Part shown: positions 1-60,589 of the stretch, one piece after another
Layout of the letters: every line of letters begins with the position of its first letter
Position numbering within the stretch: the stretch's first letter is position 1
Assembly (NCBI RefSeq): GCF_019649055.1
Contig: NW_026570258.1
Span: 930,001-994,000 of the forward strand
DNA length: 64,000 nucleotides
Direction: 5' to 3'
Source: Paramacrobiotus metropolitanus
Lineage: Eukaryota > Tardigrada > Eutardigrada > Parachela > Macrobiotidae
Made by a program: the position numbers and the translations under genes
The notes under the pieces: model-generated
Databases searched by the model: none
What the model saw: the letters and a program-made list of their open reading frames with translations, nothing else
Told to the model about the DNA's origin: nothing

Positions 1-1905
1 TTGGTTTCTAACGCAACTCTCTCATCGGTCGGATTATGGAACAGTGAACTTAACGAATTTCCCAACTGGGAAACCGTTACGGTGAATCTATCGGACACCG
101 AATCGGCATTGTGGATGATCCTGGAAGTGCGAATTTTCGAAGATAACTCATTCATCGAGATGGACGATTTCCAGCTATACGACAACAACCTCGATAGTAT
201 GGCTTCGTAGTCCACAGATTAAATTCACGTAAACGTGTAAGCTTAATAAGCCTTTTTCACACAGCCCTCTTGACCGACGATAGTAATCTCGATAAATCAG
301 GTTAGTCAGTCGTGTACATTAGAAATGGGCTCTCTGTTATGTAGGTGCCTTTTTTCAGAGCATTCAGCAACTGTTTACGGGAATGTTTTGGGTGCATTCG
401 GCTTACTTTTTATATTAGCCGGGGTGGTCTGGTACAGCCGATGGCATTCAAAGGTCAGTTTATTTACGGTATGCATTGTACTTGGCATTTTATAAGCATT
501 ATTAATATTTGCTAGTTTTTAGCTGGAATATTACACGCGGATATCTTTTTGCGATGTTCCATTGTCTCTGCTTAAGGAATTCGAACTACCTGCTAACTTA
601 CTAACCTTACGTACGACTACGCACACCGCAGACGTCGCCTCAGGCTGTTTAACATAGAACTTGTTGTGTAGTAGATAAACCACTGGACGCCGTGGACAGT
701 GGTATGGATAGCCGCTTTTGTCGCGTGGGACTTGCACGCGTCACAGCAGCCTATCCGAAACGATCACTGGATGCCCACACACAGGTAGCGGTTAAATTTC
801 TGATGGACAAACATACACGAGACGACGAGCGGTGTTTCTTGGCGGAAATGGCTACCTTCATGCGGGCGGGCCGACACGACAACACTGTCAGTTTGGTTGG
901 AGTGATACTCAAAGGTTAAACTTAATCCGTCATAGTTTCTTTTGACTAGCGCTTTTGAGTCAAAACACAAGCCGTGTAAAAAATTCAGAATTCGAAAAGA
1001 GATCGTTTTCCGGTGTTGGTTACTAGTGTCATCATTTGTTAGGTCGTCCGATGATTGTAATGGAGTACTGTGCAAATGGATGCCTACTGAATTATTTACA
1101 CGACAAAATCAATTATGCGCACATCAAAGCAAACAACCCAACTGCAGACGAAGCTGAGTTCCAAAATGAGCTGAGAAGTTTATTATGGACAATATACCAA
1201 GTGGCTAAAGGGATGGAGTTCCTGTCCGGTCGTAATATCCTCCACCGTGATTTAGCCGCTCGCAATGTATTACTGGACGATAATGCCAACGCAAAAATCA
1301 GTGATTTCGGCTTAGCCAGAGCGCACAGCGAATACATTCTACAACGTTCCAACGTAAGTCCGTTGTCCAAATCTAATTGTTGTCTCTGAAATAGTTTTTC
1401 TAAAGCAGTAATACCACAGTATTAATTCCTTTGCAAGTACAGACCGTAATAAGCGATATTCAAAAGCTTTGACGACAAAACATCATGTTATCAGTCGTTT
1501 GGATTAGGTAAAGTTGCCATTGGGCTGGATGGCCCCGGAAACACTCATCTCCATGGAAGGGCGCTACACTGAAAAGAGCGATGTGTGGTCGTTTGGTGTT
1601 GTCGTCTGGGAGAGCTTTACGTTCGGCCAGCTGCCATACACGGATACGGAACACTTTCCCGATGGACTAGAGAACCAGCTAGGCGTACTGCTCCAATTCC
1701 TTCAAGATGGCAAGCGGTTGACACTGCCGACTATTTGCCCACGCTGGATGTACGTAATTATTGAGAAACCACTATGCTGTTATGCTTAAGTGATTATGTT
1801 GATAGGTCGACATTGGTGGCTGAATGCTGGAAATGGGAGTCCGTGGAGCGACCGGCTTTTAAGGACATTGTGGTGGCCATGCATGCCTGCATGGCGGAAT
1901 TATAA
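1..1905 (+). CDS. RTK gene A, MAM-type receptor tyrosine kinase (3' part; 5' end outside window)
   Basis: Exons that keep frame: 1-196, 359-453, 523-610, 672-914, 1043-1353, 1508-1749, 1806-1905. Exon 1 is the end of a MAM-like module (EMDDFQLYD, like the family's closing LDD motif). Exon 2 is a membrane span ([20 protein letters not shown]). Exon 3 is juxtamembrane. Exons 4-7 are a tyrosine kinase: Lys in VAVKFL, Glu in CFLAEMATF, catalytic [13 protein letters not shown], and WMAPE followed by [11 protein letters not shown]. The N-lobe is odd: where GxGxxGxV is expected it reads [11 protein letters not shown], lacking two glycines. The segment between hinge and HRD is long and charged, as in split kinases of the FGFR/VEGFR type. 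The tail is very short, stopping soon after the last helix. Exon sizes (95, 88, 242 nt) track gene E, its closest relative here. AATAAA lies at 2100. Confidence 0.9.
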
Positions 1906-2404
1906 TTGCTTGTGCATTTTCAACAGCATTAGAATGAGGTCAAAACAAAAATATTTACACAGGCGGTGATAATTTCAAGGAAGTGACAATGACTGTGTTT
2001 ATTGGGCTGAGTTCATTATGGCGCCGACAGCATGAGTATGGTGTCGCCACCGCTTTTACAAGTTCAACAATATGAAGAGATAAGCTGCGTTGTTAACCTA
2101 ATAAATCTTCAGTAATTCGGTGATAAAGTCATATACAGAATATAGGACAGTTGCCCCAGATTCATTATCGCCTGCCTATACATTAGCGATGCTCCAGAAA
2201 ATCCTCTAGCTTCTTTGACGGCACAATTTGCACACCGGTGCGCAGCTAATACTTCGGACTTTGGCAAGGGAAGGTTTTACCATAGAGTACCTACATACAT
2301 CCTTCTGATAAACAGCCGTTCGCTTTAAAAAAATTCTTAGAGTGGCTGAAATCGGGATAACGCTAAATTTATAATCCGTATTAATAGCATCTTGAGAAAC
2401 AAAC

Positions 2405-5400
2405 ATGTCCTCAGCGTTACGTCTCCTGTTTCTGTTACTTGGTAAGTCTACTTACAAAATAAAAAAAAGAACAATCGTTGCATTAATTCCCGGTGTCGTT
2501 GAGTCTCATACCAAAAGCAACTGTATCCGTATAACAGAACTACTCCAATTCACCAAAGCAGAGCCCCCATCTGCTGGAATCATCACCTGCAGCTTTGATA
2601 GGGATTTCTGCGGCTGGTCGGATACCGGCACATTGCGCTGGGCTCTCGTCGGTGGCACCAACATTCTCCCTCAGCACAACGGCAGTTTTGTCAGCACAAC
2701 AAACGGCGCACTCGGCCACTACACTTTGTCTTCAGCACCCATTTCCTCATTTCTTCCCCGTAATACATCATTAGCCTTCTGGTATGCGTTACGCAAAGGC
2801 TACGACTCAGTATTCCTTAATATCACCGATCCGACGGAACAGCGCAGCTCAAGAGCTATATGGGAACGCCGCCCGCCCCAGTCGGGAGTGCATGATATCA
2901 CGTGGGCGTATGTGGAAATTCCGGTTATAGTGGACTACGATTTTCGGTTGCAGTTCACGGCCAATATTAAGAAGGAAGGCGGCCTCGTGGCGCTGGATGA
3001 CTTCGTGTATTTTGGAGAACAAGATGGGGGGCCGGGAAAACCGGGCCGCCGGCATCCGGCACTTTCCTGTACGTTCGAGACCGGCTTTTGCGACTGGTCC
3101 AATCACCGGAGCGCAACGTCCCAGTAAGCATTTATCTCTTCCGAAACTAACCGATTCCCAAGCGGTCAGTGCATACGCTTTACCGATTTATCGCACTACT
3201 TTGCAGGTTTCGGTTGGTTAACGTTGATTCTGCATTAGAAGAGGTCGCTTTCAACAGTCATCGGTATTTGCTAGCCAAGAACCAATCAATTGCACATCTG
3301 ACGATGGCGTCACTGATCAGTCCTTGTATCAATGTCCGGAACAGCACGAAGATACTCATTAATTACCACGTTGCACTGTCCACGTACCAAACCGAGCTAC
3401 GCATCGTAATTAGAAAGAACACCGGCACTTCAATAAGCCCGTTTTACAACAACGCCGACAACCTGCGGGCGGCTGATAACATCCGCGTTATCCTCCAAGT
3501 GGTGCTGCGTCCCGGTACATCCGTGCGACTGAACAGCATCTACGTGGCTAACGAAGCCGAATCTATCTTTTACAGTGAGGGCTGCACGCCGCTGTCGGAC
3601 GAACCATTGCTATCCGAGTTTCCTACGTCTCCAACGGTTTCATGTAGTTTTGACCGGAATTTCTGTGGATGGCAATTATCGGAAGATGACCCAGAAGGAC
3701 AGGTGGTCATTGGCCGGCATGTTTTTGACGATGTTGACAAAAAATTTATCCCGGTTCCTGTAGCCGGTGTGGGCGCGTTGATTATTCAGGCTAAGCTGAT
3801 TGTGTTCAACGATGAGAGACCGTGGAAAGCCGGACCGTTTTTCTCACCGGAGATTGTTCAGCGAAAACCGACAGAATTCTTCTTCTATTACCGTGTCGAC
3901 CACCACGTTAATCGAGCGTGGTTACGAGCGGAGTACGCTGACGGGAGCGGTGTAATGCTGTGGAGCTTTAAAATGCGCACTCAGGAGCCAATGATTTCAC
4001 AGAACTATAAGTGGTTACCGGCCCGCATTGGACTATGCTTACCAGGTCGATTCCGGTTGGCTTTTTATGTGCAGTTCACGATGTAAGTTATCGTTGGCGC
4101 CCGAGGGAAAGTTTCCATATCTGGGATAAAACAAGGCTGTTTTTGAGAGAGATGCCGAATAGTTTCGGTGATGCCAGAATTTTCTGAGGCTGAAGTTTTT
4201 ACTCAGTGGCCGCACTGGCGGGGTTCTTGTTTCTCGTATAATACACTGCATACCTGAATCAGTCTGGACGACTACCGCGTAAATTTGCCCGTCTTAACGG
4301 CTTTCCAGTTTCGGTATCGGCAACGTTTGACGGTCGTTACCAAAACTACCGTGATTTTTGGTTTCCACACAAGAGACCGAACCTCTGGGTTTAACGGAAA
4401 ATCAATGCAGCCGAAAGTTCCGTAACTACGTTAAGTTGCATATCGTTATATTTTTATCAAAACTTTAGCTTTCACTAACGATATTATCGTTAACGAAGGG
4501 CCTTATCGGTTCAATAATTACTGCAAAACCATTATAGTATCGAAAGAAGACAAATTTTTAAATAATGGTACTTCTGAAGATGTCACCCCAATGCTAGTAC
4601 TGCACAGCAAAATTTACAAATTCGTGAAACTACTCATTCTTCTGCATCATTGACAGGAACCCCAGATTATCGTTGTGGCTCGACGAACTGGTCTTGAAAC
4701 AAGAATCTGATGCTATAACGACGCTGACCGACACCTTTGACCCTGTTGGCTGTATACCCACCGCAGTACAGCCAAGCACGGCGATCACCTGTGATTCGTA
4801 TACGGCGCAAACCGCCCGTACAAATTTTTGTGGGTGGCAGTGTCAGCCGAATCAAAAGGTTCGTTGCAGTACAGCCGAAACATCCAGTGCTGGCGACTAC
4901 CATCCGCTCCTGGCGTTAGTCATCGAAGCCAACGCGCTAGACCTGACGAACGGAACCAGTGCCACGGTAATTAGTACGCCGTTGACTGTCCGGCCAGCTT
5001 CACAGCTGCACATTTCCTACACAGTGATCGGAGCACCCATCCGGGTTACCGTCGCGATTAGCAACAGCACCGCGCAAGATTTATCAGTGGTGGTAATAAG
5101 GGTGTTCAATTTTACGAACGACATTCGAGAATGGTTTGGACTGACTGTGACCTTTCCATCGGCTTTTTATGACCGCACTGTCCAGGTGAAAAAATGTAGA
5201 AAATAGTATACCTTTTGGAAGTTTTTGAATGAATGGAATTAATTTAGGTTGTATTTTGAATTTTTTGTCGCTACTTGGTTAGGCGCATTTGCTTGTGGAA
5301 TTTCTGCCGAGAAAAACGCCTGCTCCATATCTCACTGCAGCCTTTGCCATAAACAGCATCTGGTACACTGCAGAAGAAGGTGAGCAAAAATACGGAGAGT

Positions 5401-8400
5401 CTGTCAAGATGAAACCGTTACTGTTACAGGACACACTATGCCAGTGCAAACGGACACGATTCCTGTACCAGGTACCAAATGTTCGTTGTGAAGTAATACT
5501 TAGATTTTATTTCTGTCGTTTTCTTCGATAATTTTAACCCAACTGAAACATATATTACTGCAGAATCGTGCAACAGTTCCAATTACAAAAATATTTCATG
5601 CGATTTCCAAAACACCGCGTGCGCCTGGAGCGTAAACAGCAGTCCGCATCGCACCGAGCGCGGGAAGAGATCATGGGTAATCGGCCCGGAATATGCAGTG
5701 CTCAGCGCATCGTCGGCCGCTGCAGATAAAAGCACAAGCGAAATGCATACCAGTTATCACGGCCCAATCGCGGAGATTATGCGCTTTTCGTACCGCACCC
5801 AGGGAACTGGGCGGGTATTTTTGGAACTGTTGGCGCAAATACAGAATGACGTTTTCCGCTTATGGACGTATTCATCTATGGACAGACAGACTCCCGCTTC
5901 CTCATTCCCATTGCCGACTCATGCCGAAAAACAGGAAGTTAGCGCATGGAAGACTGTCGAAATTCCCTTGTGTATGAAATTTCCATTTAGAGTAAGATGG
6001 TTTCTTCGATTGCTTGGGCTACGAAGTATTATACTATGGTTTAAGCAGCACCACCTCCTTTGTGTTACCGATTATTATATGGGTAAAAAAATAATAGTAT
6101 TTAATTTCTTAATCTTATTGCATCGTTTGTTACCCTGTTACGACAGTAATGACAAACTATCTGTAGTAGTGAATCAGTGTCAAGCACTGCGATGATAACA
6201 CATTTCGTTAGTGATACTTTCATCCTAGTTGGTATTTCGAGCGTCAGCCGTCACCAAGAACATCTCCATTTTGCTGGATGATGTGACCATGGACAACGAG
6301 TGTGACTTTTTAACTTACAATATCGACTGTCCGGCCATGAAGCTAATAGGGCCTCCGACGAGCAAAATACCACAGGAGACTGAACTCAGTAAATTCACCT
6401 AGATTCCCAGGATTTTTTTTAGCCAGTACATTGTGCAGCTGTACTGTTTGTGCTTAAAAAGGGTCATCCTGGAGCGGTGAGCACAGCTGTGCATTTGAGA
6501 ACGGCGACCTGTGTGGATGGCGCAACAACGATAATAATCAAGTACAGTGGAGCGCTGTCGCATTCGGCACCGCGGAGACAGGCCGCAACGTAGCGGAACT
6601 GGCATGGAATGATCCGCAGATGAGGCTGCCGGCGTTTTCGTATTTGATCAGCCCGAAACTCATCGCCACAGTCGACATGCTAAGTGATACTACTCCACGC
6701 AAATTGTTGCTACAAGTAAATAGTGCCATTCCATTGCTTATTGCCTGGCATACGCTGATAAAGGTAGTTTTTGTAATACTGTAGATACTTATTGTACTTC
6801 GGTCCTTTACAGTTTAGCATTAGAATCGTCAACACGGAGACAGCATATGTCGAGCTGTACTTTGCCAGAACGGGAACTCTGCACCCGAATAGTATTCTCT
6901 GGAATTCCGATAATCTGCCGCGGACAGACGATTCGCAGTGGATATCTGTTGGCGTTGAACTACCGCCGCTTGACGCTGCCAATATCAACCAACTGGTTTT
7001 TGCTGTAGCCATGCTGCATGATCGGGGCACTGTGTTTCTGGATGATATCCTCTTGCGTGTTGCACAAGGTACCATATGAAGCAGGTTATCTGGAATCTGG
7101 ATATTCTGCAACATTTGTCGCATATGTAACATTCACTGATGGTTCTGCCTGCAGAGCGCTAACTTCATTTTAATCACAGATTCCACGGATCCGCTACTGT
7201 GGTACCAAGGTAAACCAATGCCTGTGTTGAGAACTAGTCGATGTGATGATGCCAGTTGCAGGTCACTGGTAAGGTCCTTGATTGTGAAATGTGGAAAGAT
7301 TTGTTGCAGTGGCGTTGGTTTTGTTGGGCGTGTTCGTCGCCAGCATAGTCGCGGGAGCCCTATCCATCTTTGTACGACGTCATATGAAGGTAAAAAATAT
7401 CCAACATAACAGCTTATTTGTAAGTTTATCATCCAGATTTTGCAAGTGCCTTGCAGATTCCGGACGTTAACCGACAATTGTTAGCGGGATTTGTTCCATG
7501 GGAAATTATTCAACGGTTTGAGCAGCCGCATTGGTCGGTCCAGTTAGGTAAGCAAGAGGACTGCATCGTAAAAATTAATTCCGTATTAATCGTGCTTCTC
7601 AATGCAAATGCAGAGCTAAGACACGTTGGCGAAGGGCGCTTCGGCTACGTGCAACTTGGTTGGATACCCACTGCATACCACCCTAGTAATCAGCCGGTGG
7701 CCATTAAGCGCTTGAACCGTCAGCACTCAACGGTGGGCCGTGACCGGTTCCTGGTGGAAATGGCCGTGTTCATGAAAGTCGGGAAACACCGCAATGTTGT
7801 CGAATTACTGGCCATCACAACACAAAGTTAGTCGAACAATTGGTCGAAAAATAATTTGAGCGTTTAAAAACTTTACCCTGTTTAGAAGAGCTGATGATTG
7901 TCATGGAATACTGTGAGGGTGGTTCGCTGTTGGGCCATCTCCATGATCCTTCAAATTTTCCGGCGTGCAATGCACATATGAAGAACAATCCGTATGATGG
8001 TTCGGCGGTACAGAAAGAAATTGTGCGATTAGTCCTTTTTTCTTACGATGTCGCGCGTGGAATGGAGTTCTTGTCGAATGGCCACATTGTGCATGGTGAT
8101 CTTGCCGCGCGCAACATCCTGCTGGATAGTCTTAAGCGGGCGAAAATTGCAGATTTCGGGATGGCAAAGTTTGAAGGAGATTTCGACACGAAAGCTTTGT
8201 TAGAAAACGTAAGCGTACAAGACTCTGTTCAGACTGCACTCATGCGGTTACTCGATTTAACGTTGGATTACCAACAAAGTTTTTCAGTCGAATTCGCCTG
8301 GGACGGTATAAAGACAGATATGAACTCAAGTGTTGCAACAAAAAATTAAATTAACCAGCATGCTTGTAGCAGCGCAGTTTCATGCAGTTTTTAATTAAAC

Positions 8401-8890
8401 TGGGTTTTGTAGAGCTTGCTTCCAGCAGGCTGGGTCGCTCCTGAAGTTCTGGCACCCACCGTAAATCCGTGCCAATCCCAGAGCGATGTATGGTCGTTCG
8501 GCGTTCTGGTCTGGGAGATCTTCTCCTTAGGTGCAAAACCGTATGAAGCGATGTTCGCGGCGATGGATTTTACGTGCGCGGCGTTGTGGGGATACCTTAA
8601 CGCCGGATGCCGGTTACCGGTACCCACACTGTTGCCGGAAAAACTGTAGGTTTTCATGGTCACTTTCATTTTTTTCCAATAGAATTATAATTTTGGAGCG
8701 GTTTATTATTGAATGTAGGCAAGAGATGGTGAAGATGTGTTGGGAGTTCAAACCTGAACAGCGGCCATCTTTTCGGGAACTCTTGAGAATCACCGGAGGA
8801 CTACTACCGTCACAAGCCAAAGAAGTCTACATCTCGTGTGAAAAAGATGAGCGAAATAATGACGCTGTTAGTGATCAGAGTGCGGGTTAA
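2405..8890 (+). CDS. RTK gene B, six-MAM receptor tyrosine kinase with HGD catalytic loop
   Basis: Sixteen exons: 2405-2441, 2538-3123, 3207-4082, 4657-5185, 5283-5379, 5564-5991, 6229-6388, 6462-6715, 6813-7068, 7180-7209, 7310-7389, 7457-7547, 7614-7826, 7886-8208, 8413-8645, 8719-8890. They sum to 4365 nt (1454 aa) with all phases agreeing; the exon 2 start could be 2559. Exon 1 is a signal peptide ([13 protein letters not shown]). Six MAM-like modules follow, each opening with a C-x-F-(x)n-C-x-W motif (for example [33 protein letters not shown]) and closing near a DD. Exon 11 spans the membrane ([20 protein letters not shown]). The kinase has a good glycine loop (GEGRFGYV), VAIK, DFGMA and WVAPE, but reads HGDLAARN where HRD is normal. 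Starts 500 bp after gene A ends. Likely a surface receptor; its ligand is unknown. Confidence 0.92.
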
Positions 8891-11776: not shown

Positions 11777-11928
11777 TGCTACTCTTAAACCATGAAAATG
11801 ATTTTGTAGGGACGTTGGGTTATTTCGTCTCATGGTTCTACGATTTTGAAAAGGTGAAAACATTTATAATTTTCAGTATCTGTATAATAATACGTTTTTT
11901 GCTAATTCCTATGTTTGTCGGACTGTGA

Positions 11929-11934
11929 AATAAA
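11929..11934 (+). terminator. Polyadenylation signal of gene C
   Basis: AATAAA lies 153 bp after the stop of gene C and 90 bp short of the stop codon of convergent gene D, so the two 3' UTRs may overlap. Confidence 0.5.
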
Positions 11935-12023
11935 GCGTAAAAACTAAAGCATTAGTCAAGCTTATTCGCAGTGATACTCGGCAGAAGCACAAAAAGAAAA
12001 CTACATCTAACGAGATGTTAAAA

Positions 12024-15000
12024 CTACAGCTTTGTGCTGCACTCCTCGCCGCACGAGATGTAGATTTCCATAAATTCCGGTGGCAGTAACGCCGCCAGGG
12101 AAGCAATTATTTCTTGGCAAGAGGGCCGATTTTCCGGCTGAAATTCCCAGCAGCTGTTGATTATGGGTTTTCTAATATACAAACATCAAGTCAATCTTCT
12201 TTATCGCATGAGTACTAATACAGCATTCCTTATTTAATAAGTACATACTTATTAGTTTAATTAACTGCCAAAGTAAACTGCTATGAGAGACTACATGTAT
12301 TTGGCTACCGAGACATACAATTGCTCCGGAAGCAGAATAGGTGGCCGCAGTCGGTAGCCGGCTTGCAGGTATTCAGCTAATGCACCTGTCGAAATACCGT
12401 CCACGTCGATACCAAAATGTTCATGCGGATCGGCGCCTAACGTGAAAATCTCCCACAGCAGAACAGCGAAGGACCAAATGTCGCTTCTGCAGGTGCTCAC
12501 TGTCCATGTCCCAATCAGCACTTCGGGCGCCATCCAACACGCGGGAACGATGGTCTACAAAGGAATTACTTACCAGCGAAACTTTTGCTATGTTCGATAA
12601 AAAATTTAATACCGTATCAAGGGCGACCTTTTGATATTATATTATTGTTTTTTGTCTAATTCAAATTTTTCTGCACTGACGTGATTCTCTAGCATCAACG
12701 AATCAGCATCGGTTTCAAATCGGGCATGCCCAAAGTCGGCAATCTTCGCTTGTTTATTTTTATCCAGTAGTATGTTGCGAGCGGCAAGGTCACCGTGCAC
12801 AACATGCCCGTTGAAGAGAAATTCCAGGCCGCGTGCCACATGGTACGCGAAACCAGTCATTTCGTTGATTTCCCCTTGTGATGACGGTGAATCATCGTTC
12901 TTGCACAGCTTGGCCGAACACACAGGGAACATAGTTTCTTTGCGAAGATGGGTGAGCAAACATCCATATTCACAGTATTCCATTACAATAGATAAACCTT
13001 AATTTATTAAAGGTCATCATTCTTATTTCATATTCCGAGGCACGCAGAGTTGCTAACCTCGTGTTATGATCCCGATGAGCTGGACCACGTTACGATGCTT
13101 GCCGATTTTCATCATCATCGTCATTTCGTTGATAAAACTGCCCTGATGTGTTTCGCTATGTTGTCGCTGCAGCGTTTTTACAGCGACTGGCTGATTTCCG
13201 AATTGCGAGGTCAACCACAATAGCCGCACTTCGCCGAAGCGTCCTGCTCCGAGACGCTGGTTATCTGTAAAGTTCTGACTGTAACTCTGTAACTGTTGTT
13301 CCATTGTAAAAGCTTTGTGCATAATTCTGACCTTGCTGCAAACACCAGCTGGGCAGCTCAAACACGGGAAGCAGTTCTAAGAAAGTTGCCGGAAGTTGTT
13401 CGAGGTTCGCATCAGGCCTCTGCTTGAGAGAGAGATACCAAGCGTTCACATAATTATATGATACTGGTCTTCTTTATTCTAACCTCAGTTCGCTTTTTTA
13501 ATAAAGTATGGTAAACTCCAAGTAAGATCCCGATGGTTAAAACTGCTGAAACCCCGGCAAAGCCTAACGAGAACATTAATTAACATTAACACAGATAACA
13601 TTAATTAAGAACAGGATTAAAAAGTCAACTGGCTGAAGCAGGTTCAGGCAACATGATATATGTACGTACTTGCATGCCACGCTGTGGACCAATCCATCAA
13701 TGAGACAGCTACTAAGAAAAAATAATCACGACATGTTTTGTTTTGGATATAGCAAATACTTTTGCGCTTTCCTTAGTCACATGCTCAAAGCATGTATAGA
13801 TTAGAATGGAATAAGTTCAATAAAACGTAAAGCAGCATGTACTGCACCTGGTGCCGATCCTATCGTAATGTCATTCAGAAAGATATATCCCTGGACATCC
13901 AGGATGACAGCGACAAATACGAGGCGGGGTTGTTGCACACCGTCGTTCGCTGGCAATGCAACCGTCACCCTTCTCCTAGCCGGCTGAGTCGCCGAGAGTG
14001 CATTGGAATTCCAGAGTGTGTGTCTTGTCTCCAGTACATCCGACGTGGTACAATAAAGTTCCATGAAAACTTTACTGCGTCCGGCAATCTGAATGTCGAA
14101 CTATGCACACAGTCGCTACTGAGCCACATAATTCCGATTCTTTCACTGAATCACAAATACTTATGGTCTTACTTCCAAGCGCAAGTTCTGCTCAGGAGAG
14201 CTAAGCAGAGGGCTGATGAGATAGCTGAATGATGGCAGACTGATGGACCAGCTGTCCCATACTAACGTGACAGCGTGAGGATTTTCATCCGGTCGCCGCT
14301 TTTGACCCATCGTCCACTGTATTTGTGTGTCATCGTTGTTTTGCCAAGCGCACAAAACAGCGTCTCTCGATGTGCAATTGAGATTTCCGTACCACCCCAT
14401 TCCTTTTTTAAGCAGCAGTGTTGTTTATAAAGGCATTATGTACTGATAAATGATTTATGTTTTACTTAGTTTTGTTTGGGACGATTGTGTGCTGATTGGT
14501 GGTTCAACCAGACGTAAAACTGGACAGTGAATGTTGCGCTGCTGCACGTGGCATTCGTCATCTACGGCGATATCATCCAACGTAACCGATGCACCGGGCT
14601 CCATTGACGCAGCGTGCAAAATCAGCTGCAATTTTAACATTTTTGCCAAAACTGAGCGCATCGGTATTCTGAGAAGATTCACCTGATATGGAAATTTGAT
14701 ACATAGATCCAGTTGCGCCTTTTTCCAGTCTTCCCTTCTTTCAGAAGTCAAATCGTCAGAGGCTGTCCACAGTCGAAAAGCATAACCGTTCGTGCGGACC
14801 AGTACGCTAAGAAAGGCGGAACCAGTGATTCTGTACGAGAAGCTTAAACGGCTTTCGATTGGACTGTGGTAACTCGTGTGCAGTTCGGCTACGCTTCTGT
14901 CGAGTTCTGGATCAGAATGCGTCAGAACAAGATATTCAGAGATAAGTTGCCATTCCGGTAATCTTTTTGCAACGATAGTGTCACTCGTTGGATACCCAGT

Positions 15001-18000
15001 ATTCCAATCGCATTTTCCGTTCGAAAAATCGCAGCTGATGTTCTTGTACAGGGAACTTTCACACTGCTCTACAAGTGATAAGTTAGTGAAGGCGGGGACA
15101 TTATTTCTACAAGTCACTCCAATTCCGGAGCGGGTGGAAAGCAGCTAGAGCAAAACCTACCAGCCAAGGGAGGAGCGTCAGTTTGTTTCGGTATACGATA
15201 TCCTATAAAAATACAATCAACACTGCTTCCGCTAAATCAAAGACGACAGCAGAAACGACTGACCCGTTTCGGCAGTGTACCAGATGCTGTTAATGGCGAA
15301 GTAGGCTGGACGGGATGTGGACCGGAATTCCACAAGCAGCCGCATCTATGTAATAAACGAAGATACATTTGGCTTGGGCTAAGTTCATTATAGGACATTG
15401 GTCCCTTATTGGCCGGAAACTTCAAAGTCCTTCGCTCGGCTTGGTCGTATCCTGTGCCAATGACAAACTCAGAACGACTGTTAACTGTACAATGTGTACC
15501 TTTACGGTTCGGCCAATAAAATGTGAGGGTAATGGAATATCCAAACCAGACCATTCGATCACGTCTTGACCGTTAAATGTTAAGGCTTTTATATGAACCC
15601 ATTCTTCGGTCGTCTGTGTGCCACTCTCGACATCACTAACAACAGCGCTAAAATTAAGCGGATTGCCCACAACAATGAAGGAAATGTGGACCTCCGACCC
15701 GTTGACCACCGTAAAAGACGGGCTTTCCAGCGCTCCTTCCTGGTTCGTTTCGAAACTGTTTTCAAGAACATGAATTTTCAGTGCTGTAAGCGGTGCATAG
15801 CCACCTTCACTCTGGACTTCGGCTGTGCCGCAGCGGACATCTGCAGTGGATTCTGGAGCGGATAGGCACTGCCATCCACAGAAGTTACCCGTTCCGCTTT
15901 GTGCCAATCTTGAGTCGCACGTAACCGTCAAGCTCGGAAATTCATGACCTGTTTGACAGTCCAAAATAGGAACGTTCTCATTGCTGGTAGTCATACTTTC
16001 CGCCTCATTTTCAACAATGAATTCGTCGATCCATAAAGCCATTCTAGGATACCTGCGCAACTTGATACAAGTTAACCATATTCACACGTTTAAGGTACGC
16101 ATAGAAGTTAATTATTGCTTTCTCTATCAGTAAAGTTCACTTCTGTTTTTTCATGCCCCTCCTTAAATCTTAGGCTCGAGCTGATTGACTAATCCTTTTG
16201 AGCTATGTTAAAATTTTGGCTGTTCATAAATCTTAGGAAAAAATTAAGCAGTCTAATATTGGTAGGACGCTTACGATAGAAATTGTGCGTAAAACGCTAG
16301 CCGAAATCGACCTGGCAGGCACAAGGCAATACGCGCAGGGAACCACCGGCTTCGCTGTTGCGCCAAGGGCATCTGCGGTCGCATCTTAAAACTCCATAAA
16401 ATGACGCTGTCACCCTCCGCATACTCAGCGTGCATGGCAGCCCGATCAACATGCACATTACCCCGGTAATAAAAGAACAGCTGCGTGGGTCGCCGCTGTG
16501 TGATCACCGATGTAAAGAATGGTCCAGCGTGCCACCGAAACGTACTATCATCGTCCACCGGAAGTGTTTGTATGACTAGTGCGCCCTCTCCAATGAGCGG
16601 CACCCGCGCGTTTTCGTCGCGGTAATTAACCGTCACCTCCCGGGCAATGGCTGCATGCCCCAGGGTGTCGTTGGGCGAGAGCTGCCAGGCACAGAAATTC
16701 CGGTCAAAGCTGCAGGTGATTGTCTTACTTAACGGGTACTCCGCTGTCATCGGTTCATCAGGAATAGCGACGCAGTCGGTACCGGCGTACATCACTTCGG
16801 CTTCGTTTGCCACGTAGACCTCCCGCAACTCTATGAACTGGCTGCTCTGTAAGATGACTTGAACAACGATACGGCCGTTGATCGTAGCGGGAAGATTGTC
16901 TTCTTTGGTATTCGGCCGAACAACTAATTGCCGGTCTTGGGTTATGAGTAGAACTTTAAGCTCACTGAGTTCCGGTTTAGTGGGACGATTTTGAAGAAAA
17001 TCTATTGAAAATTTTGTGGGATGTAGAATAGTCACACAGGGACTAAGCAGGCGCGCTGCGATGAGGTGCATATCCATAGGATTCTCTGCCACCGGAAATG
17101 GATTATCACCGGAATTTCGACGCACGAATCTGTAGAAAAATAAATTTTAAAAATTTTTGAAGTTAGAATAATGAGAAGCAAAGATCGCTATAAAATTTGC
17201 AGGAACGATGCATCGAACGGAACTTCCGTATCTGCTTGTCATTCAGTTGCCTTAATTACTTACAACTTACAAGCAATCAGGCTCTTCGATAACAGCACGT
17301 TGAAAAAAATCTACAGAAACTTTTGCCATGCCAAAGTCTCTAAAAACCAGTGTAGTGTAGTGGCTACGCGCCATATTAGCACGTAGCAACCCGCATGGCT
17401 GTGTTGACCTGTAGCGGACGCATTTTATGTGGTACTACGAGTATTTCCTTATTCAGTATCTATCCGGCCAGAGTGGCACAATAAACATCTGTGCCAAGAC
17501 GTGACAATTGGCGTGAAGTGTAGTATTCTCTGAACTCTTAAGCGGGAAAGGAGAAGAGGAAAGCGAGCGCTATATAATAAGAGATCGAAAATGACGACCA
17601 CAACCGATCAATTGACCAAGTTCAATCCGGAAACCATGGACTGGAAGGCGTGGAAGTTTTTGTATGATAATTATACTGTGCTGACCGACCTTCATACGGA
17701 CAAGCACCGTGCCTTGCTAATAAACAGTCTGGACACGAAGGCCCTGCAGCTTTTAGTTTCGATGTGCAAACCCAAGATGCCGTCCGACTTCACACTGGGT
17801 GAACTGGTCACGAAGCTGGAAACGGCCTACGCCCCGTACACAAACCAAATAACCGAGTGGGCGCTGTTCTTCAGTCTTCGGCAGGACGAAAAAGAAAGCC
17901 TGGTGGACTTCGCGACACGTTTACGTGACAAAACGATCCTATGCGACTTCCCGGCAACAGTGCTGGAGAAGAATTTAAGTGCTGTGCTCGTGGCAGGCGT

Positions 18001-19417
18001 CAAAAGCGACGCAACGAGACGCTACCTAATGCTGCAAGAGCTGAAGACGTTCGACGCCGCCCTCCAAATTGCTATCAAATATGAAACAAGCGTGAAAGAG
18101 GCGAGAAAAACTAACGTGGAAGAGAATGTGGTGAACCGTATTAAGAAGCGAGAAACAACAGTGAAGAAAGAGGATAAGAGCAGGAGAGAGAAGAGACAAG
18201 AAGAGAATGAAGAAGAAAGTGGAAGTGACGAAGAGATGCCGTCCCGGCGGAAGTGTAAAAGATGTGGATCCTGGCGGCATACGCCCGAAGAATGCTGGTA
18301 TAAAAACACCAGGTGCAATGCTTGCGGCATGAAAGGCCACATAGAGAGGGCATGCCAGCAGAAGGACAAGAAGAAGAAGGAAAAGGTCGATACCGTCTAC
18401 AATGTCGAAGAAGACTATTTCGACATTTTGCCATAATGTTCTGCTTTTTCACTTCATTTTAAGGGTGAAGGTGTAGTGTAGTGGCTACGCGCCATATTAG
18501 CACGTAGCAACCCGCATGGCTGTGTTGACCTGTAGCGGACGCATTTTATGTGGTACTACGAGTATTTCCTTATTCAGTATCTATCCGGCCAGAGTGGCAC
18601 AATAAACATCTGTGCCAAGACGTGACAACCAGACAGACGGCTTTTGCACCTACTAAATTATGTAAGTTGACATAATAAAATGAATAAAATAATTATTATT
18701 ACTGGGAAAAAGCTGATTTCTGATTGGACCACTCGCATAAGCCATTCTGAAAGCGACAGGAGAGGCGTGGCCGTTGTGCCACCGGTCTAGCTTCAACATC
18801 ACGATCTTCGCCGAAGTACACGATATCGTCCAGTGCTACCAAACCACCTCGCTGGTTGATCTTGGTGACAAAGCGGAAATACCAACCATACTCCACAAAA
18901 ACTGGAATCTCCACGTACGCCCACGTAACGTCATGCGTTCCCAACGGACGCAGCCGTTCCCATACGATCACTGGGGACTCCGTCCCACTTGGATCGATTA
19001 AGTGAAGAAAGACCGAATCATAACCGGTCCGCAGGGAATACCAGAAAGCCAGCGATGTATTCTGCGGCATCGGTATTTGTACAGGGACACTGGACAGAAC
19101 GTGTTCTTCCTGGATTTGGGATGTACTGACAAAGGTTTGGTTGTGCACAGCGAGCGCCTCACTGGGACTGGTTAGAATCCAAGGAGCGGGACCGGTGTTT
19201 GTCCATCCACATAAATCAGTATCGAAATCGCAAGAGATTTGGCTGACCATTCCGAGGATGTTGAGATGATCCACGGCTGCAACAGATTTTTGTTTACTCA
19301 CATTGAAAAAATTTTTATCGACGTTGTTGGCATAATCCTGTAGAAAAATTTTCACATTTTCTCTCCCTTACCAAAAAGAAAGCAGATTAGTTTCACTAAA
19401 TCTAGGGAGTGCAGCAT
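12024..19417 (-). CDS. RTK gene D, six-MAM receptor tyrosine kinase with HGD catalytic loop
   Basis: Sixteen exons, high to low: 19372-19417, 18703-19276, 16275-17129, 15500-16052, 15264-15345, 14683-15068, 14466-14625, 14173-14402, 13848-14100, 13670-13711, 13484-13563, 13332-13422, 13058-13264, 12681-12997, 12319-12554, 12024-12171. They sum to 4260 nt (1419 aa) and every phase matches. Exon 1 (MLHSLDLVKLICFLFG) is a signal peptide. Six MAM-like modules follow ([34 protein letters not shown] and others), then a membrane span (FAGVSAVLTIGILLGVYH) and a kinase with [27 protein letters not shown] and WMAPE. Exons 7, 11 and 12 are the same length as in gene B (160, 80, 91 nt), so B and D are sister copies. 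An LTR element sits in intron 2. The stop lies close to gene C, which converges on it. Confidence 0.92.
17351..17506 (+). repeat. Left LTR, 156 bp
   Basis: Starts TGTAGTGTAGTGG and ends GTGACA. Matches 18472-18627 base for base as far as I compared, and carries AATAAA near its 3' end. Confidence 0.93.
17591..18436 (+). CDS. Retrotransposon Gag with two CCHC zinc knuckles
   Basis: Single 281-aa ORF between the LTRs. The N-terminal half has the retrotransposon Gag pattern: FNPETMDWKAWKF near the start, then a helical capsid-like stretch with ESLVDFATRLRDK. A Lys/Glu-rich linker follows (about residues 175-215), then two C-x2-C-x4-H-x4-C zinc knuckles (CKRCGSWRHTPEEC and CNACGMKGHIERAC). It stops soon after the second knuckle, where an autonomous Ty3/Gypsy-type element would go on into protease and polymerase. 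Gag binds element RNA and assembles particles. No stop or frameshift is visible. I place it nearest the Ty3/Gypsy group by pattern only. Confidence 0.9.
   Translation: MTTTTDQLTKFNPETMDWKAWKFLYDNYTVLTDLHTDKHRALLINSLDTKALQLLVSMCKPKMPSDFTLGELVTKLETAYAPYTNQITEWALFFSLRQDEKESLVDFATRLRDKTILCDFPATVLEKNLSAVLVAGVKSDATRRYLMLQELKTFDAALQIAIKYETSVKEARKTNVEENVVNRIKKRETTVKKEDKSRREKRQEENEEESGSDEEMPSRRKCKRCGSWRHTPEECWYKNTRCNACGMKGHIERACQQKDKKKKEKVDTVYNVEEDYFDILP
18472..18627 (+). repeat. Right LTR, 156 bp
   Basis: Same length and sequence as the left LTR; followed directly by the ACCAG target duplication. Confidence 0.93.
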
Positions 19418-20416: not shown

Positions 20417-23400
20417 CTACAAGGTTTCGATTTCCTCCTCGGGATTGGCAACTTTGGAATATTTACCCATCAAGCTCACAATTTCTTTAAACGACAACCG
20501 ACCACTGACCTCCCAGCTCCAACAATCAGCGACCAATGCTCGCCTGCAAAAATTGTCACCATGATAAAATTAATATGGCAAGGCAACCGACTTTTTCTCA
20601 GTATTACATCCAGTCCGGGCATGTTTCCGGGAGAATCAATCGTTGTCCACTCAAGAGAAACTGCGAAAGGCCATCAACATCCAGGCCTAGCGGAAACGAC
20701 TGCGAATACGGCGTTTGACCATAGGTGAAGCATTCCCATGTTATCACTCCGAAGGACCACACATCGCTCTTTTCGCTGTAGCGCCCATCTCCGGGAATCA
20801 GCGTCTCCGGTGCCATCCATCCCAAGGGTAGTTTGATCTGCACCAGAAAAAGTACCGTCAGGTTTAGCCGAGTTAATACCAGAAAACTAGAATAGCTTGA
20901 AGTAGCTTCCAACTATCTTTAGTAAAACTACACTAAATAAACGCAGTTTCATACGTGTAAAAGTGTCTGCATAAGAGTTAAAAAGGGTTAATAATGCCTA
21001 AACAGCTGCGTCAAATCATTATAGAATAAGTAACATAAAACCTAATAAACGTCTAAAATTCTAATTTCTTTTACATTAGGACGTTGCAGAATGTACTCGC
21101 TGCGAGCTCTTGCTAAGCCAAAATCACTGATTTTCGCGGTTAGGTTGTCGTCCAGCAGGACATTACGAGCGGCTAGGTCACGGTGCAGAATCCCCCGGGT
21201 GGTTAAGAAGGCCATGCCTATCGCGATCTGCTGGAGTTTCGACAGCAGGAAATCGACATCCGCTGTGATTTCGGTCTCTGCGTTATCGGCCTTTAAATTT
21301 TGTAAATACTGGTACAGCGATCCATGAGGACAGTATTCCATAACAATCATGGGACGACCTGTGACACAATTGGATAGTAATTGCGCCCTTAGATGGATTA
21401 ACGCGATCACGGTGCTAAGCTGTTAATAACACATACCCTTCAAGACAACCGCAATGAGATTGACAATATTTGGATGTCGGCCCACTCGCATAAATGTGGC
21501 CATTTCGGCTATGAAACACCGTTCCTCTTCCGGCGTATGTTTATCATCAAGAAACTTGACCGCAACAGTTGCTGCGCTTTCAGACAGGCTTTGGTCTCGA
21601 GCAGCACTAATACGCGCCACTCCGATACGACAGAAATGGCTCGTCCGAAGATCCTGACTTACTAAGACCAGACAGTGTTTTAGTTTCTTATTACATGATT
21701 TTGTTTAAGAGTCCGGACAATGGATGAAAATGTTTTAATGCGCCCTTGAAGTCTTGAGCCCTTCGCTATTATGTTTGCCGATCTTACTTAAAGTCACTGC
21801 ATTGCTGGGCAATTCGAATTCTCGCAACAATGAATCAGGTACATCGCAGAAAGCCAGCCGACTGTAATACGTAATCTGCAATGAAACAGCTGTGTGGTAG
21901 AAGGCCTTTTTAAATCTACGAAATTGATTTTAAGGGATTACCTTTGAATACCAGCGGCGGTAGAATATTATCCCGATAATAACAACAGCCAAACTGATTA
22001 TGCCGATGAGGTTACCATATAAAGGTAGCCAGGATCCTGAAGTTATTTGTTGTATTACAAACTTATCTTGTCCACAGCTTCTTAAGTACACCTCCTTGAT
22101 AGTTGTTGCATACTGTTATTGACGCACCTGTTGCAGCGGTTGGCGGAAGTGTCGGTGCTGCAAAGCAGAGGTCAACCGTCAACCGTCAATTAATGTGAAT
22201 TTTAATCACTAACACTTTTATTACGCAACAATTATGCAGCTCACCGTCGTCACGAGCAAACTGAAAATCGTCCAGTTCGGTAGATGAATTATCCTCGTAA
22301 AACGTAACCGCAAAGGTTAACCAAAACGGAACATTGGTTGTGGTGAGATTGACCTTTGCGGAGAGCCACTCTGGAATTTCTCCGGCTTGGCTATCCCAAA
22401 TTTTGAAGGGTAGCGTATCGGTGAGAGTGACAATATAAAGCTGCAGTTGCACCACTTTTCCTTCAGAGCCTCTGTATCGAAACTAAAGGGATGAAAACAT
22501 GCATTTATGTAAGCACTCTTCGTGAGGTGAACTAAAAAGAAATAATACGATGTCGTAAAATATTTCCCACAATGCTGTAGGGAGACCGTTTTCTTGTACC
22601 TTAAAGAAACATGCATTCGATTCGGCACAGGATGTATTTGGACTCAGCAAATAAGCTGTCACGGTTCTTTTTGGTATTTCGGTGCAGTTAACGACAGCAA
22701 CAAACTCATCCGACACTGACAGGATAGCCCATGCTGTCTGGTCGTTCGCCGACGTGGTCCAGTTGCAGAAGTTCTGCTGACTAAAGCTGCAGTTTAAGTC
22801 ACCAGACTCAGGTGGGGCTAAAAGCAAAGATGGTTTTTATTACAGATTCTACCGTTTTCTGGCACACCGTGCTATGGACGGTGCAAAGGTCATACAGAGA
22901 GCCATGCTCGGAATCGGTGTAGTTGTTGCGTGGTTGTCTTGATCCATTGATGTATAAAGCAGAAGGTCCGGACAAGCGACATTATTCTGCAGCACTGAAC
23001 ACTCATCAACCAGGACAATGTCGTCTATGGCACAGACGTAAGGCTCATCGCCAGTCGAAGCTTCGAAAACCAACTGAAAAGAATATATTTGTATCGTTAC
23101 ATCTGCTAACGTATGTGGCACGCGCATACCTTAAAAGGAAATTTCAGGCAAATATCCACTGAAACATTTTGCCACCGCCTTAACGAATGATGAGTGTTGT
23201 TGCTACTCATTGAATCCCACAGTAAAAAGTGGTTTTCTCGGGTTTGTGCCCACAGTCGCAAAGACTCTATACCGCGACCGAAGATGTAGAGGGAAAATTG
23301 CAGAACGGTCCGTAGCGGTCCGATGTAGTCAGTCTCCAGAATATTCCTGGATTGTGGAGTTCCCTTAAGGATCATCATGTGGTCGTGTCCGTACAGGTCA

Positions 23401-26400
23401 CCGCTGGAAATGGCAAAGGGCATAGATGAAGATGATTGGTTCGCCGTTACCCAATTGCCAGGTGAACCGGGTAACCAACTGCAGTTGTCAGAAGATTCAA
23501 ACGCGCATGAGACTTTCCGATAGCTTGCGTGATCGCATCCAGCTGTATCAGAACCGACTATGTTTTGATCAAATGTATAAGTATTTTGTCGTACGTATAC
23601 TTGTATATCATTTTTTTAGTAGGACTTTTATTGAGCAAATAATTTTTCCTGTTCCACAGTGCATTAATAACAGATGCAAACGGGTATGTCATTGTTCTAC
23701 ATGGTTACTCAAGACTACAAATGTGTCTATAGTAAACAACAACGGTTTTGATTACCGATGGCATGACTACGCAATGGTACTGAATAAGTAACCTGCGTAC
23801 CGTATTCCGGAAGGTTATCGGACTGAGATCCCATTTCGAAACCTACAATATGCGGCGTTAACACAGGGCTCACAAGACTAATTGTACAGAGAACGACCCA
23901 TAATCACTCATTTTCAAAAGCTTGGCCAACCTATATTCTTAGATCTGGCCCTTCTGGGTTATTTCTAGCCCAGATGATTAGCTGACACACACCCTTCGCG
24001 AAGTTATGAAGACGTGTCTAGAATCAATGAAACGAGCGATTGTAGATTCCAGATCTACCGGCACCGCTCCGCTTGAAACCGACTGTGTTTTGTGCGCCGA
24101 TTACTTTTGCACGCGTCTTTTTGCCTACCCCTGATCTTGATTTGTTGTATTAAAATGAGACAACAATTACAAGCTGCGTCCTGTATGGTTAAACAATCTC
24201 AACCGTAACTCATTAAAATAGTTTATCCAAGCAAGAACACTTCGCGCTGTTTCCCAATTGGGTCGGTTTCTCCTGAACTATGCTGCATGTCGTGTGCATG
24301 TTACGGCGCTACTAACCTTTTTCATCAGTGAACCAGATGCGATGCATGGCAAACGTGGCCCCTGGATCAGTCTGGTTAGGGTCCTGGCTTAACGCGAGAA
24401 AAGTAACGGTAACGGTGATCTAAAAGAAAAAAGTACTTTATTTTACCAAATGCTGACTGAGCTGATCACGATATACCCGCTATTTGTCTGGTAACAATTC
24501 TAGTGCTCTCAGTAGCCATTCTTAACTAACGTTACTACGTACTTGCGCGTAGCCGGTGATACGCAAAGGAAACACTGCGCGGCACCACTCCCTCCTTTTT
24601 AGATCTCGATGTTGGCGGGAGAACAGTTGAACAGGAGCAGTGCTTGCGTCAGTGTCTTGTGCCGTCACGCGGATCAGGATGGGTCGCCGGCGATAATACC
24701 AGAGATGCAAGTGACCACCACTACGTGTCTCCACCACCGGACTTTTTAGCTGGAGTGTTATGTTGGTGTTGTGAGAATGGGCATAATATGACAGCGCCCT
24801 CGTATTGTAGGCATACTGGACGTTGCCGAAATTGCGAGTGAGTAGCTCGTTCTTCAGGGTCACGTCAGGATGGCTGCTAATCTGTCAGCTGCAGAACGTG
24901 AGAGTCGCAGTGCTGGTAAACATGTAGGTTCCGTCGCAGGTAAGCGACGGCGTCATAGGTGCATGCGGAGCAGCGTCACTGTTGCAACTTTCAGACGACA
25001 CACCGGAGTGCGTTGTTTCAGCTTCCAGGACCAGATCGTCAATCCAAAATCCGGTGGTGTCAGGTACGTGCATGCTGGCAAAAAAAGATCAGTCACTTAA
25101 GTTTGTTATAAATATGTACCAGCACGCGGATAAGATAACTGCAAATTACGGCAATAGTCATTTTCCGCAATTTACCGCACTGACCGCTTTGCAAAAATAC
25201 AAAACACGAGACGGTACTTTCTAGAATACGGTTGTGTTCTTTTTTAACGAACCAAAACCAAGCTCATATAAAAATCGTACGCATGTTCTTGGCTCAGTAA
25301 CCTATATTTTCACATCTCCCGTGGAAAAACCGATTTCATGTTTGGCTATATGTACTGCTGTTATTCCCGTTAAATTGTGGATCAGTTGGTCAGTTGTATG
25401 ACGGCCCAGCGGCAGTTGGTTATTATCCTTAGTTCTGTTTACTCTGTTTTTTGTCTCACCCGTATTATTTACGGAATTTTATTCGCAAAGCTTGTAGTTT
25501 GTTGAAGACTTACTTGAAATTAGCGGTGAATTCTAACGTATAGTTCCCATCCACGCAATAGCTGAGCCGATGGGCATGCCACGTATTTTTAGCATACAAG
25601 TCTTCGTCGGAAACAAAATAATACCATAACAGCGATGATCGGTTCCCGGTTTTTAACTCCAGAACGCTCCAGTGAACGATTTTATCAAAAAAATAGTAGA
25701 AGGTCAAATATGTCCGGGCTTTGCCATGGACCACAACCGATCGCAACGGTCCAAATGTCCGGACAGGCTCGTCTTTCAACAGAAGAGCCATGGCGGCGCC
25801 CAGCCCCACACGCGGTTTGTATGTCCCATAACCCGGAAATACGAGAAACTCCTTTGGCCCTGCGTTGGTCCAACCACATAAATTACGGTCAAAACTGCAG
25901 GTCACCGTCATCTGCTGTGGATACCGGGGGCGTAGGGGTTCCATAGGGTATTCTTGGCAGGCATTGGATGGCTGAATATTCCCGGTTTCATTGTGTATCG
26001 TTAGTACCGGGATTCGCGCCGGATTGACAGATCGCCTGGGAAAACTATGCTCGACAACTATGCGCACGGCTTCGCGGCGACCCAGCCTTAATCTCGTGTT
26101 ATTCCGTAGCATTCCGATGTAGTTCTCGGAAGAATTATGGAATAACTTGACGACCAGCAAGTTACCGTAAAAGATCGGGTCGTAACGAAAAAAATCAGTA
26201 GGTGCTACGATGTCGATGCACGAACTGACGAGGCGGGCGACGGATACATCAGTTGTCGTTCCGCCCGTGGCTTCCAGGGCAAACAGACTTTCCGGCTCGG
26301 AAATACCGTTGTTGTCAAAGAATTTCCTTTCCCATATAAAGCGCAAAAAAGAATAATAACGGTTCAGTAAATGAAGTCCCTGCAGTCAGGTTCTATGTAT

Positions 26401-28324
26401 TCGATAAACTTTTGAGACTTCGGATTCGTAACTAGCAGATAACCTTTTCAGCAGGTAGCAACTACTTGGTACTCTCTCTTCGCACTGGTTTCGCAAAAAA
26501 GCTCAATACCGTTGCTACTACCATAGGTTCCCAACCACTACCAGAACCACTTCCTATAACTAACGCCACATCACGCTATCGAGGCTGCGAGCAGCAGACT
26601 AGAAGTACTTCTGGAAGCGCTCACATAACCCACCAAAGCGGGGACGTTAATTACAAGAGTAATCGGCGATTAATCATGTTATGCGCGCCCTATATTGTAT
26701 CTGTAGGCTGCACCACTGCTGCTGCAATTAAAGTGGGTCATTAGTGTTTAAATTATACTGAAAACGCGCTGTTTTTGCGAAAAACCGAAGTACGCAATAC
26801 ATTTTCTACCAACCTGGACGACACACTGTACTGGTTACTCCAACCACACATAGACTGGTCAAATGTACACCCGATCCCGGTACAGGCATGCGCGCGAGCG
26901 GCACTCCCGCTGAGTTCTCCGTGGTACACAATATCAGCCAATCGGATCTCTGAGCCCTGCTTATCGATGGCTCCCAGGAAATGTACGGAAACATCGTCGT
27001 GTAGACATAATGGCAGATCGACCGCTAGCCAACGTCCCACATTATGTGATTCTGCAGCCATTTCCCATACAATGACCGCTGTGTATCGTTCCGCTACCAA
27101 AACCCGAAGAAACTCTATCCCGGTATTGCTGAACCAGTACCGAAAACTCAGGGTCGTGTTTAGCGGCAGCGGTGAGCGGATCGGTATACTGCCGAGCTTG
27201 ACACTGCGGTTCTTGTAGCCAGGATGAAGAAGAGTGCCACGATGCCGCAGTGCGGCGTAGGATATGTTATCGGTTGTGACAACGCTGAAATCTCCGTCAA
27301 GATAATTCGTCCAGCCGCAGAGATCAACGCGGAAATCGCAGGTGATCGATTTCGTTGCCCAGGGCAAATGGCTTGGAAAGATGTTGTCTGCAAACAAAAA
27401 TCAGACGTTCGCTTAGGATTAGCGTGAAAAGCTATAAATAATTTTCTGAAGCAATGACTGACCGCTTTTTGTGGTGACTACAGCGTCTAGGGCGAACACC
27501 GTAACTGATCGGCCGAAGATGACGCGAAACACTAGAGATCCACTATTATCGGTGCTAACAGGAACTACCGCTTGAAACCACTGACTATTGGGATATTCCT
27601 TATGCAGCGTATCCCGTAGCATCCAGAACACAGTGTCACTGCTGTTATTTTGTGGTGAAGGTAGCCTGAACGACAGGGCTATAGTGCCGTATGATTTCGG
27701 CACCGAATACCAGAAGCGGACCAGAAACCGGAGTGGCATATCATTCGGTGCAACCATTAAACTAGAGCTGATAAGGTCAGTCCAGATTTCGTCGCCGTCT
27801 CGTCGGGTTCCATTTGGCGTATGCACGTAATTCCCTTGTACTACAATCAGCAAACGGTTTCAAATGAAGCTCTTCTTACATAAGTATCGTATGTCAAATG
27901 TGGAAATGCGAGTACTTTTAGTACAGGTGCGGAAAAACGTTAGACACTTGAACGCTAATGAGTAATGTAAATTACTGAAACTACTTTTACAGATCGGAGA
28001 AGTTTAAGTCACACACGTTTGACTGAAAGACTGTATAAGGTTTATACTTAAGTGTTAACCTCTCCTTTTATTATGTGCGTATGGCGCTCTAATTTTACTG
28101 ATCGCTGACTTACCAACATCGTTACAAAATGATGCATTAGAGGCGTCATTTTCATTTTGACTAAGAATCCATGATATGTTGGAATGGCTGCTGGCCGTTG
28201 TCCATCCTGGACACAGTCCCGTATCAAAACTGCAAGTGAATTCCGGTACGAACACGGTCTCTTCTCCATTTATTAGAGAGTATACGGGTACATTTACGAC
28301 TAATACAGCTATCAGCAACAACAT
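20417..28324 (-). CDS. RTK gene E, seven-MAM receptor tyrosine kinase with one in-frame stop
   Basis: Sixteen exons, high to low: 28114-28324, 27463-27840, 26814-27387, 25514-26326, 24543-25074, 24317-24419, 23130-23557, 22896-23073, 22600-22817, 22245-22482, 21942-22036, 21788-21875, 21437-21661, 21075-21358, 20608-20837, 20417-20543. They sum to 1574 codons with all phases consistent. The signal peptide ([16 protein letters not shown]) and first MAM module share exon 1, unlike B and D, giving seven MAM-like modules. The membrane span is [14 protein letters not shown]. The kinase has [19 protein letters not shown] and WMAPE, but the glycine loop is degenerate ([11 protein letters not shown]). 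At codon 722 (24885-24887) a TGA replaces the Trp of the family motif FCGWQ, and coding continues in the same frame. Either a young pseudogene, a truncated secreted receptor, or a sequence error. Confidence 0.88.
24885..24887 (-). other. In-frame TGA in RTK gene E (conserved Trp position)
   Basis: The frame reads TTC TGC AGC TGA CAG, where B and D encode FCGWQ. Upstream and downstream codons are in the same frame and homologous to the family, so this is a single substitution, probably TGG to TGA. Confidence 0.85.
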
Positions 28325-60532: not shown

Positions 60533-60589
60533 CTGAAAGTTAAAGCACCTTCTTATTAGCATCTAAGACCGCTTTATGCGCCGCAGCTA

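Follow-up and report, generated by a model that had tools for sequence, protein, structure and literature searches.

MAM-only receptor tyrosine kinases and a PGRP-bearing sister group in a tardigrade genome: a probable case of ectodomain change on a kept kinase cassette

Four related receptor tyrosine kinase (RTK) genes, designated A, B, D and E, lie in the order A> B> <D <E in the window analysed here, a stretch of 64,000 nt (C38:930001-994000 in our contig labels) from a 169.8 Mb assembly in 533 contigs of a tardigrade, presumably Paramacrobiotus metropolitanus. This order had been proposed in an initial annotation made from the sequence, and the gene models agree with it. We consider it likely, with good confidence, that the four genes belong to a class of RTKs with MAM modules as the only ectodomain, that this class comprises two old subtypes (A-type and B-type), and that it represents one branch of an RTK expansion which kept its cassette of transmembrane (TM), juxtamembrane and kinase exons while changing the ectodomain. 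Relatives were found on contigs C85 and C8 and, with other ectodomains, on C63, C6, C89, C118 and C10.

We joined the exons of genes B and D manually, using GT-AG introns, because a home-made protein-to-genome aligner, run on B as a test, placed just 5 of its 16 exons exactly. Gene B (2405..8890, plus strand) comprises 16 exons encoding 1454 aa in a single open frame: a hydrophobic N-terminus, six MAM modules recognized by motif, a TM segment and a tyrosine kinase with a GEGRFG loop and HGD. Gene D (12024..19417, minus strand) has an intact frame of 1414 aa, likewise in 16 exons, with six MAM modules by motif, a TM segment and a kinase carrying a GAGRFG loop and HGD; all 15 of its intron phases are identical to those of B. 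A hydrophobic start and a TM exon were judged by eye to be present in both in-frame models. Genes A and E were modelled with the aligner and iterated profiles, and their exon edges are approximate. The window holds the 3' part of A (1..1905, plus strand), from the end of the last MAM module through the TM (359-453), juxtamembrane (523-610), Gly-loop ((672 or 675)-914), catalytic (1043-1353), C-lobe (1508-1749) and last (~1806-1905) exons, all on the plus strand. Its 5' part precedes the window on C38 from ~924.6 kb, the first module being located at C38:924624-925412. Gene E (20417..28324, minus strand) encodes seven MAM modules by motif, a TM exon (21942-22036), a juxtamembrane exon (21788-21875), both on the minus strand, and a kinase whose Gly loop is degenerate (TSHFCRI), with HRD and DFG intact.

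As the initial annotation had pointed out, A resembles E and B resembles D, in their sequences as well as in exon structure and the motifs of the kinase. Remeasurement of the A/E exons returned the same lengths (TM 95/95, juxtamembrane 88/88, C-lobe 242/230 nt), and the FCR-G loop of A and E and the HGD of B and D are present. For B and D, the lengths of 160/160 and 80/80 nt were recovered; the third pair, given before as 91 nt in both, is 91/88 nt.

The MAM identity of the ectodomain was borne out by Pfam. With A and E entered without their first module (M0), PF00629 matched B (7.8e-35), A (4.3e-32), E (4.1e-31) and D (1e-19), and in these four proteins MAM was the sole ectodomain family above cut-off. 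Five members outside the window, analysed as spliced proteins, also contain MAM above cut-off (2.6e-13 to 2.4e-20). A genome-wide search with the MAM family listed nothing on C85 and one match under cut-off on C8, although the spliced proteins from both contigs do match. By eye, C-x-F...C-x-W motifs mark six modules in B and D and seven in A and E; Pfam itself delimits three or four MAM stretches per window protein. The module-by-module check suggested earlier was carried out on ten modules of B and E and succeeded in part. Six passed the MAM cut-off on their own, namely M1, M2, M5 and M6 of B (4/6) and M0 and M6 of E (2/4 tested); B M3 (0.0079) and E M1 (2.8e-4, under cut-off) gave weak MAM matches, and M4 of B and M4 of E gave none in Pfam. 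The first module in a further A-type gene, C8a, was absent from the genome stretch examined and may lie beyond it.

The clearest example, B M1 (2588..3001, plus strand; Pfam residues 30-167; 3e-10 alone), lies inside exon 2538-3123. The exon-4 part of B M4 (4775..5185, plus strand) has no Pfam match; its structure was predicted by folding it together with six relatives (mean pLDDT 75). Foldseek returned nothing for this model at E <= 0.001. In VIA-align the top seven rows were MAM proteins (two rows of meprin beta, three of meprin alpha, and one each of LAST-MAM and neuropilin-1; Z 8.9-7.8), and we take the matched ranges to be their MAM domains. From Z 7.7 down, the ranking passes to Eph receptors and carbohydrate-binding modules; at this thin margin the model supports, and does not prove, a MAM-like fold for B M4. 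The window receptors share the MAM domain with RPTP mu/kappa, meprins and neuropilin-1, and the B M4 model resembles the MAM of meprin, NRP1 and PTPRK. In those proteins a single MAM is combined with domains of other kinds, and they are not known to include a tyrosine kinase. Elsewhere in the genome, large arrays of MAM-coding exons were observed at C4:628-650 kb and C75:395-494 kb, where no kinase occurs among the matches listed; as far as these lists reach, this speaks against taking the arrays for additional receptor kinases.

Kinase relatives were collected by genome searches with the A and B kinase segments, and gene totals are minimum values. Among the matches listed, further A-type genes are located at C85:413k(-), C85:435k(+) and C8:913k(-), and further B-type genes at C85:427k(+) and C8:950k(+). 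The class thus has at least nine genes, A, B, D and E plus five at two other loci, and both subtypes are found at each of the three loci. For the kinase tree of this genome 43 sequences were aligned and one, C2_2888k (93 columns), was dropped for length, leaving 42; a wider tree of 53 sequences includes ten human references, with C2_2888k back in. Support values are given as SH-aLRT/UFBoot. The MAM receptors form a clade in both trees (94.4/98 and 86.8/90), in line with a MAM-only receptor class as first proposed. Within the 42-sequence tree, the A-type (99/100) and B-type (99.8/100) subclades are well separated and, judged from these sequences, are two old subfamilies. Since A shares its subclade with E, and B shares the other with D, the trees lack the grouping of A with B and D with E that had been named beforehand as contrary to the proposal.

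The kinase domains of A, B, D and E match PF07714 (PK_Tyr) at 9.5e-65 to 6.6e-68. A two-copy EGFR construct tops the PDB ranking for the A and B segments by way of two summed stretches; the best matches are KIT, FLT3, FGFR1, CSF1R, VEGFR2 and PDGFRA. By these matches the window kinases are FGFR/VEGFR/PDGFR-like; by the 53-sequence tree they are not ALK-like. Unlike PVR, PDGFR, VEGFR and FGFR, the window proteins contain no Ig family in Pfam up to E 1, and in the 53-sequence tree, where deep nodes are weak, the human FGFR/VEGFR/PDGFR/RET clade falls outside the window-kinase group. In 5/5 A-type genes the Gly loop has changed from GxGxFG to xxSxFC (A, DSRFCRV; E, as above; C85a1, PSHFCHV; C85a2, RSHFCQV; C8a, ESRFCRV), and all five keep the beta-3 Lys (in VAVK, VVVK or AIVK), HRD and DFG. 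The B-type genes retain GxGRFG, and in three of the four (B, D and C85b) HRD is replaced by HGD; C85b in addition has NFG in place of DFG. One report (PMC11024359) describes HGDLA, the form found in these three B-types, as a conserved feature of decapod PVRs. HGD alone is therefore no mark of a dead kinase, and we dropped its interpretation as a kinase defect.

The nearest relatives in the sampled kinase tree carry a different ectodomain; they lie outside the window and so beyond the view of the initial annotation. Four stretches 5' of kinase exons were examined. Three of them, on C63, C89 and C118, code for a PGRP domain plus a hydrophobic segment (Pfam Amidase_2 at 1.3e-7 and 1.1e-5, above cut-off, and 1.7e-5, just below). 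The fourth, C10:1535-1541 kb, encodes receptor kinases with tandem Cys-rich repeats, in which Pfam recognized no named family. At C63:792089-793613 a single reading frame runs through the exons for PGRP, linker, TM, juxtamembrane and Gly loop. The in-frame model stops at the Gly-loop exon, which an intron of ~1.7 kb separates from the catalytic exon. Intron phases after the linker, TM, juxtamembrane and Gly-loop exons of this one modelled gene are 1, 0, 1 and 1, identical to those of B exons 10-13. In the MAM and PGRP kinds alike, the linker exon follows a phase-1 intron, and in B and D so does the start of the MAM ectodomain. The C63 PGRP domain gave 26 PDB matches (best 8e-23), 25 named PGRP and one named CG14704, which we take to be PGRP-LB. 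Both PGRP-kinases whose Gly loop was read (C63 795k and C89 309k) have the canonical form.

A protein search of the genome with PGRP gave 51 matches. Among the matches listed, a PGRP lies on the same strand 1.0-5.5 kb ahead of a tyrosine kinase at no fewer than 13 places (four on C63, one on C6, five on C89 and three on C118), and on C63 an additional PGRP lies divergently ahead of each of the four PGRP-kinases. Other PGRP matches have no listed kinase (antisense on C63, C6 plus strand, C51, C388, C58 and C25). The PF01510 family search of the genome yielded a single match, the domain being probably interrupted by introns. In the trees, the PGRP-named clade has a support of 94.3/92 (42 sequences) and 92.5/92 (53 sequences). 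We read these data as a receptor superfamily in which MAM, PGRP and Cys-rich ectodomains appear to have been swapped on one kinase cassette; a conserved TM-kinase cassette with exchangeable ectodomains would explain the architecture. Exchange of RTK ectodomains is known in general (PMC8662651), and the receptors described here would, if the reading is correct, provide a clear recent-lineage case. A separate observation was made on the plus strand of C51:751-755 kb, where a candidate PGRP, a hydrophobic segment and a Ser/Thr-type kinase (HGDLKPGN) follow in a row (Pkinase 8.3e-26, Amidase_2 4.9e-7, in bases 1-3284 of C51:751401-756000); this could be a PGRP receptor with another kinase class.

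Several points weigh against a MAM-only class sharing its cassette with a PGRP branch. The evidence comes from the genomic DNA of one genome, the aligner models of A, E and the C85 and C8 genes are approximate (that of C8b without the N-terminal half), and the tree loci are 43 drawn from the best kinase matches, not every kinase. The sisterhood of MAM and PGRP kinases has moderate support (89.5/86 with 42 sequences, 90.6/78 with 53), and two members of the PGRP-named clade, C37 and C50, lack a PGRP match in the protein search. Within the B-type, C8b has HRD, so HGD is not universal there; complementary kinase changes in A- and B-types were consequently dropped as a rule. Chance alone would bring the two types together at all three loci in 60/126 of cases, so this pattern is no evidence of A-B pairing, which we no longer treat as statistically meaningful. 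Finally, E (24885..24887, minus strand, module M4) and C85b contain one in-frame TGA each, both exactly at the conserved Trp of the MAM CGW motif; the one in E had gone unmentioned in the initial annotation. These may be assembly errors, alleles or decay; errors are conceivable because the P. metropolitanus assembly is described as Canu/nanopore based in the section of the source available (PMC11191345).

The receptors of this class would combine an ectodomain of six or seven MAM modules with a single membrane span and a kinase of FGFR/VEGFR/PDGFR-like type. The TM-juxtamembrane-kinase cassette would be the constant part and the ectodomain the variable one (MAM in this branch, PGRP in its sister and Cys-rich repeats in a third), and the phase-1 intron would mark the junction of the two. 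In other proteins, MAM domains serve homophilic contact and oligomerisation. By analogy, the MAM rod may bind a partner, and binding would gather the kinases, such that B-types (canonical Gly loop, PVR-like HGD) and A-types (altered loop, HRD and DFG kept) may signal by phosphorylating each other or a shared substrate. For the PGRP branch we infer bacterial sensing because of the known role of the PGRP domain; an extension of this role to the MAM branch, like a partnership of A with B, would be a further step.

Together, the MAM and PGRP kinases hint at an unusual innate-sensing receptor system. The available text of a 2020 survey of eight tardigrades (PMC7056985) reports Toll-like receptors, did not find intracellular Toll-pathway homologs or Relish, places PGRP homologs in eutardigrades only and names possible novel immune mechanisms as an open question; a figure legend lists extracellular and transmembrane PGRPs, and "kinase domain" does not occur in the main text as available. 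Neither PGRP-kinases nor a MAM-only RTK class turned up in our searches of the open-access PMC literature. If real, PGRP-kinases would link sensing of the bacterial cell wall directly to a kinase and offer a direct, testable route to the tardigrade immune question, and they are possibly a bigger finding than the MAM receptors. More speculatively, and in our view doubtful, exon shuffling may have joined PGRP (peptidoglycan sensing) and MAM rods (contact sensing or co-receptors) to the kinase cassette as an innate system that replaces the absent Toll/Imd parts, with A- and B-types as obligate partners bearing complementary kinase changes.

How the four genes came to lie in mirror order is a separate matter. 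The initial annotation took them as an inverted duplication of [A-B]; the mirror pairing stands, but an origin at this locus does not follow, as C85 members break the pair A+E. Copying of [A-B] in inverted orientation into [E-D] at this locus, later than the divergence of the C85 and C8 copies, is a tentative alternative that we regard as the less probable history. The order A> B> <D <E itself and the exon lengths and phases common to A/E and B/D speak for it, as do raw identities. E is nearest to A (39% in the ectodomain and 61% in the kinase, vs 34-36 and 56-57 to other A-types) and D to B (42%/54% vs 29-37/49-50), whereas A is about as close to other A-types (kinase 58-60%, ectodomain 37-40%) as to E. 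The trees conflict with these identities. In the full-length tree of the nine members, E joins the C85 A-types (90.2/90), with B, D and C85b unresolved; the kinase trees place E there less surely (0/53 with 42 sequences, 53.9/98 with 53) and join B to the C85 B-type (86.9/98 with 42 sequences, 68.7/71 with the nine members, 87.7/98 with 53). The pair A+E is thus split by C85 members in every tree, and B+D in those of the kinase. A tree constrained to hold both pairs is 7.1 log units worse and survives the AU test (full length p 0.07, ectodomain 0.14, kinase 0.11); at full length both constraints together are excluded by bp-RELL and c-ELW, and not by KH or SH. Nothing recent fits an ectodomain identity of 39-42%, and no long DNA repeat links the halves: inverted matches of >=60 nt reported between them number just two, both in kinase exons (154 nt at 75% and 133 nt at 71%). 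The conflict between identities and trees leaves the mirror order compatible with, but no proof of, a local inverted duplication.

That some members are decaying copies, pseudogenes or pseudokinases without signalling appears unlikely. The TGA codons of E and C85b, the lost Gly-loop glycines of the A-type and the NFG of C85b would fit decay. However, B and D are open over about 1,400 codons, and the A-type loop change recurs identically in all five genes, suggesting that it is maintained. Each of these five genes also retains the beta-3 Lys, HRD and DFG, and HGDLA is shared with the decapod PVRs cited above. ALK and LTK are known RTKs with MAM modules, but a derivation of the window receptors from them by multiplied modules is highly improbable and their membership was rejected, since hALK branches with hINSR (91.8/99, 53-sequence tree) on another kinase branch, ALK is absent among the 60 PDB matches listed for A and likewise for B, and the window receptors show no LDLa in Pfam up to E 1 and have six or seven MAM modules and nothing else.

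Other features of the window were noted. An intron of D contains an element (17350-18628) with 158-nt identical direct repeats and a 300-aa open reading frame (ORF; 17534-18436) with CCHC-like motifs by eye; it looks like a recent gag-only LTR-type insertion, and Pfam found nothing above cut-off. Between B and D lies a multi-exon gene (10432-11770, plus strand), the hand-joined start of which had no Pfam match. A Mab-21 family nucleotidyltransferase is encoded at 34964-36645 (plus strand; Pfam, N part 4.5e-30, C part 5.9e-29). At 55958-59073 an inverted repeat has 1528-nt arms, 100% complementary, and a 60-nt spacer, and is either a recent palindrome or a long-read fold-back artefact. Diverged direct repeats (80 and 78%) connect 55.1-55.4 kb with 59.8-60.1 kb, and two neighbouring ORFs at 59619-61636 (minus strand), related by look, contain weak leucine-rich repeats under the Pfam cut-off.

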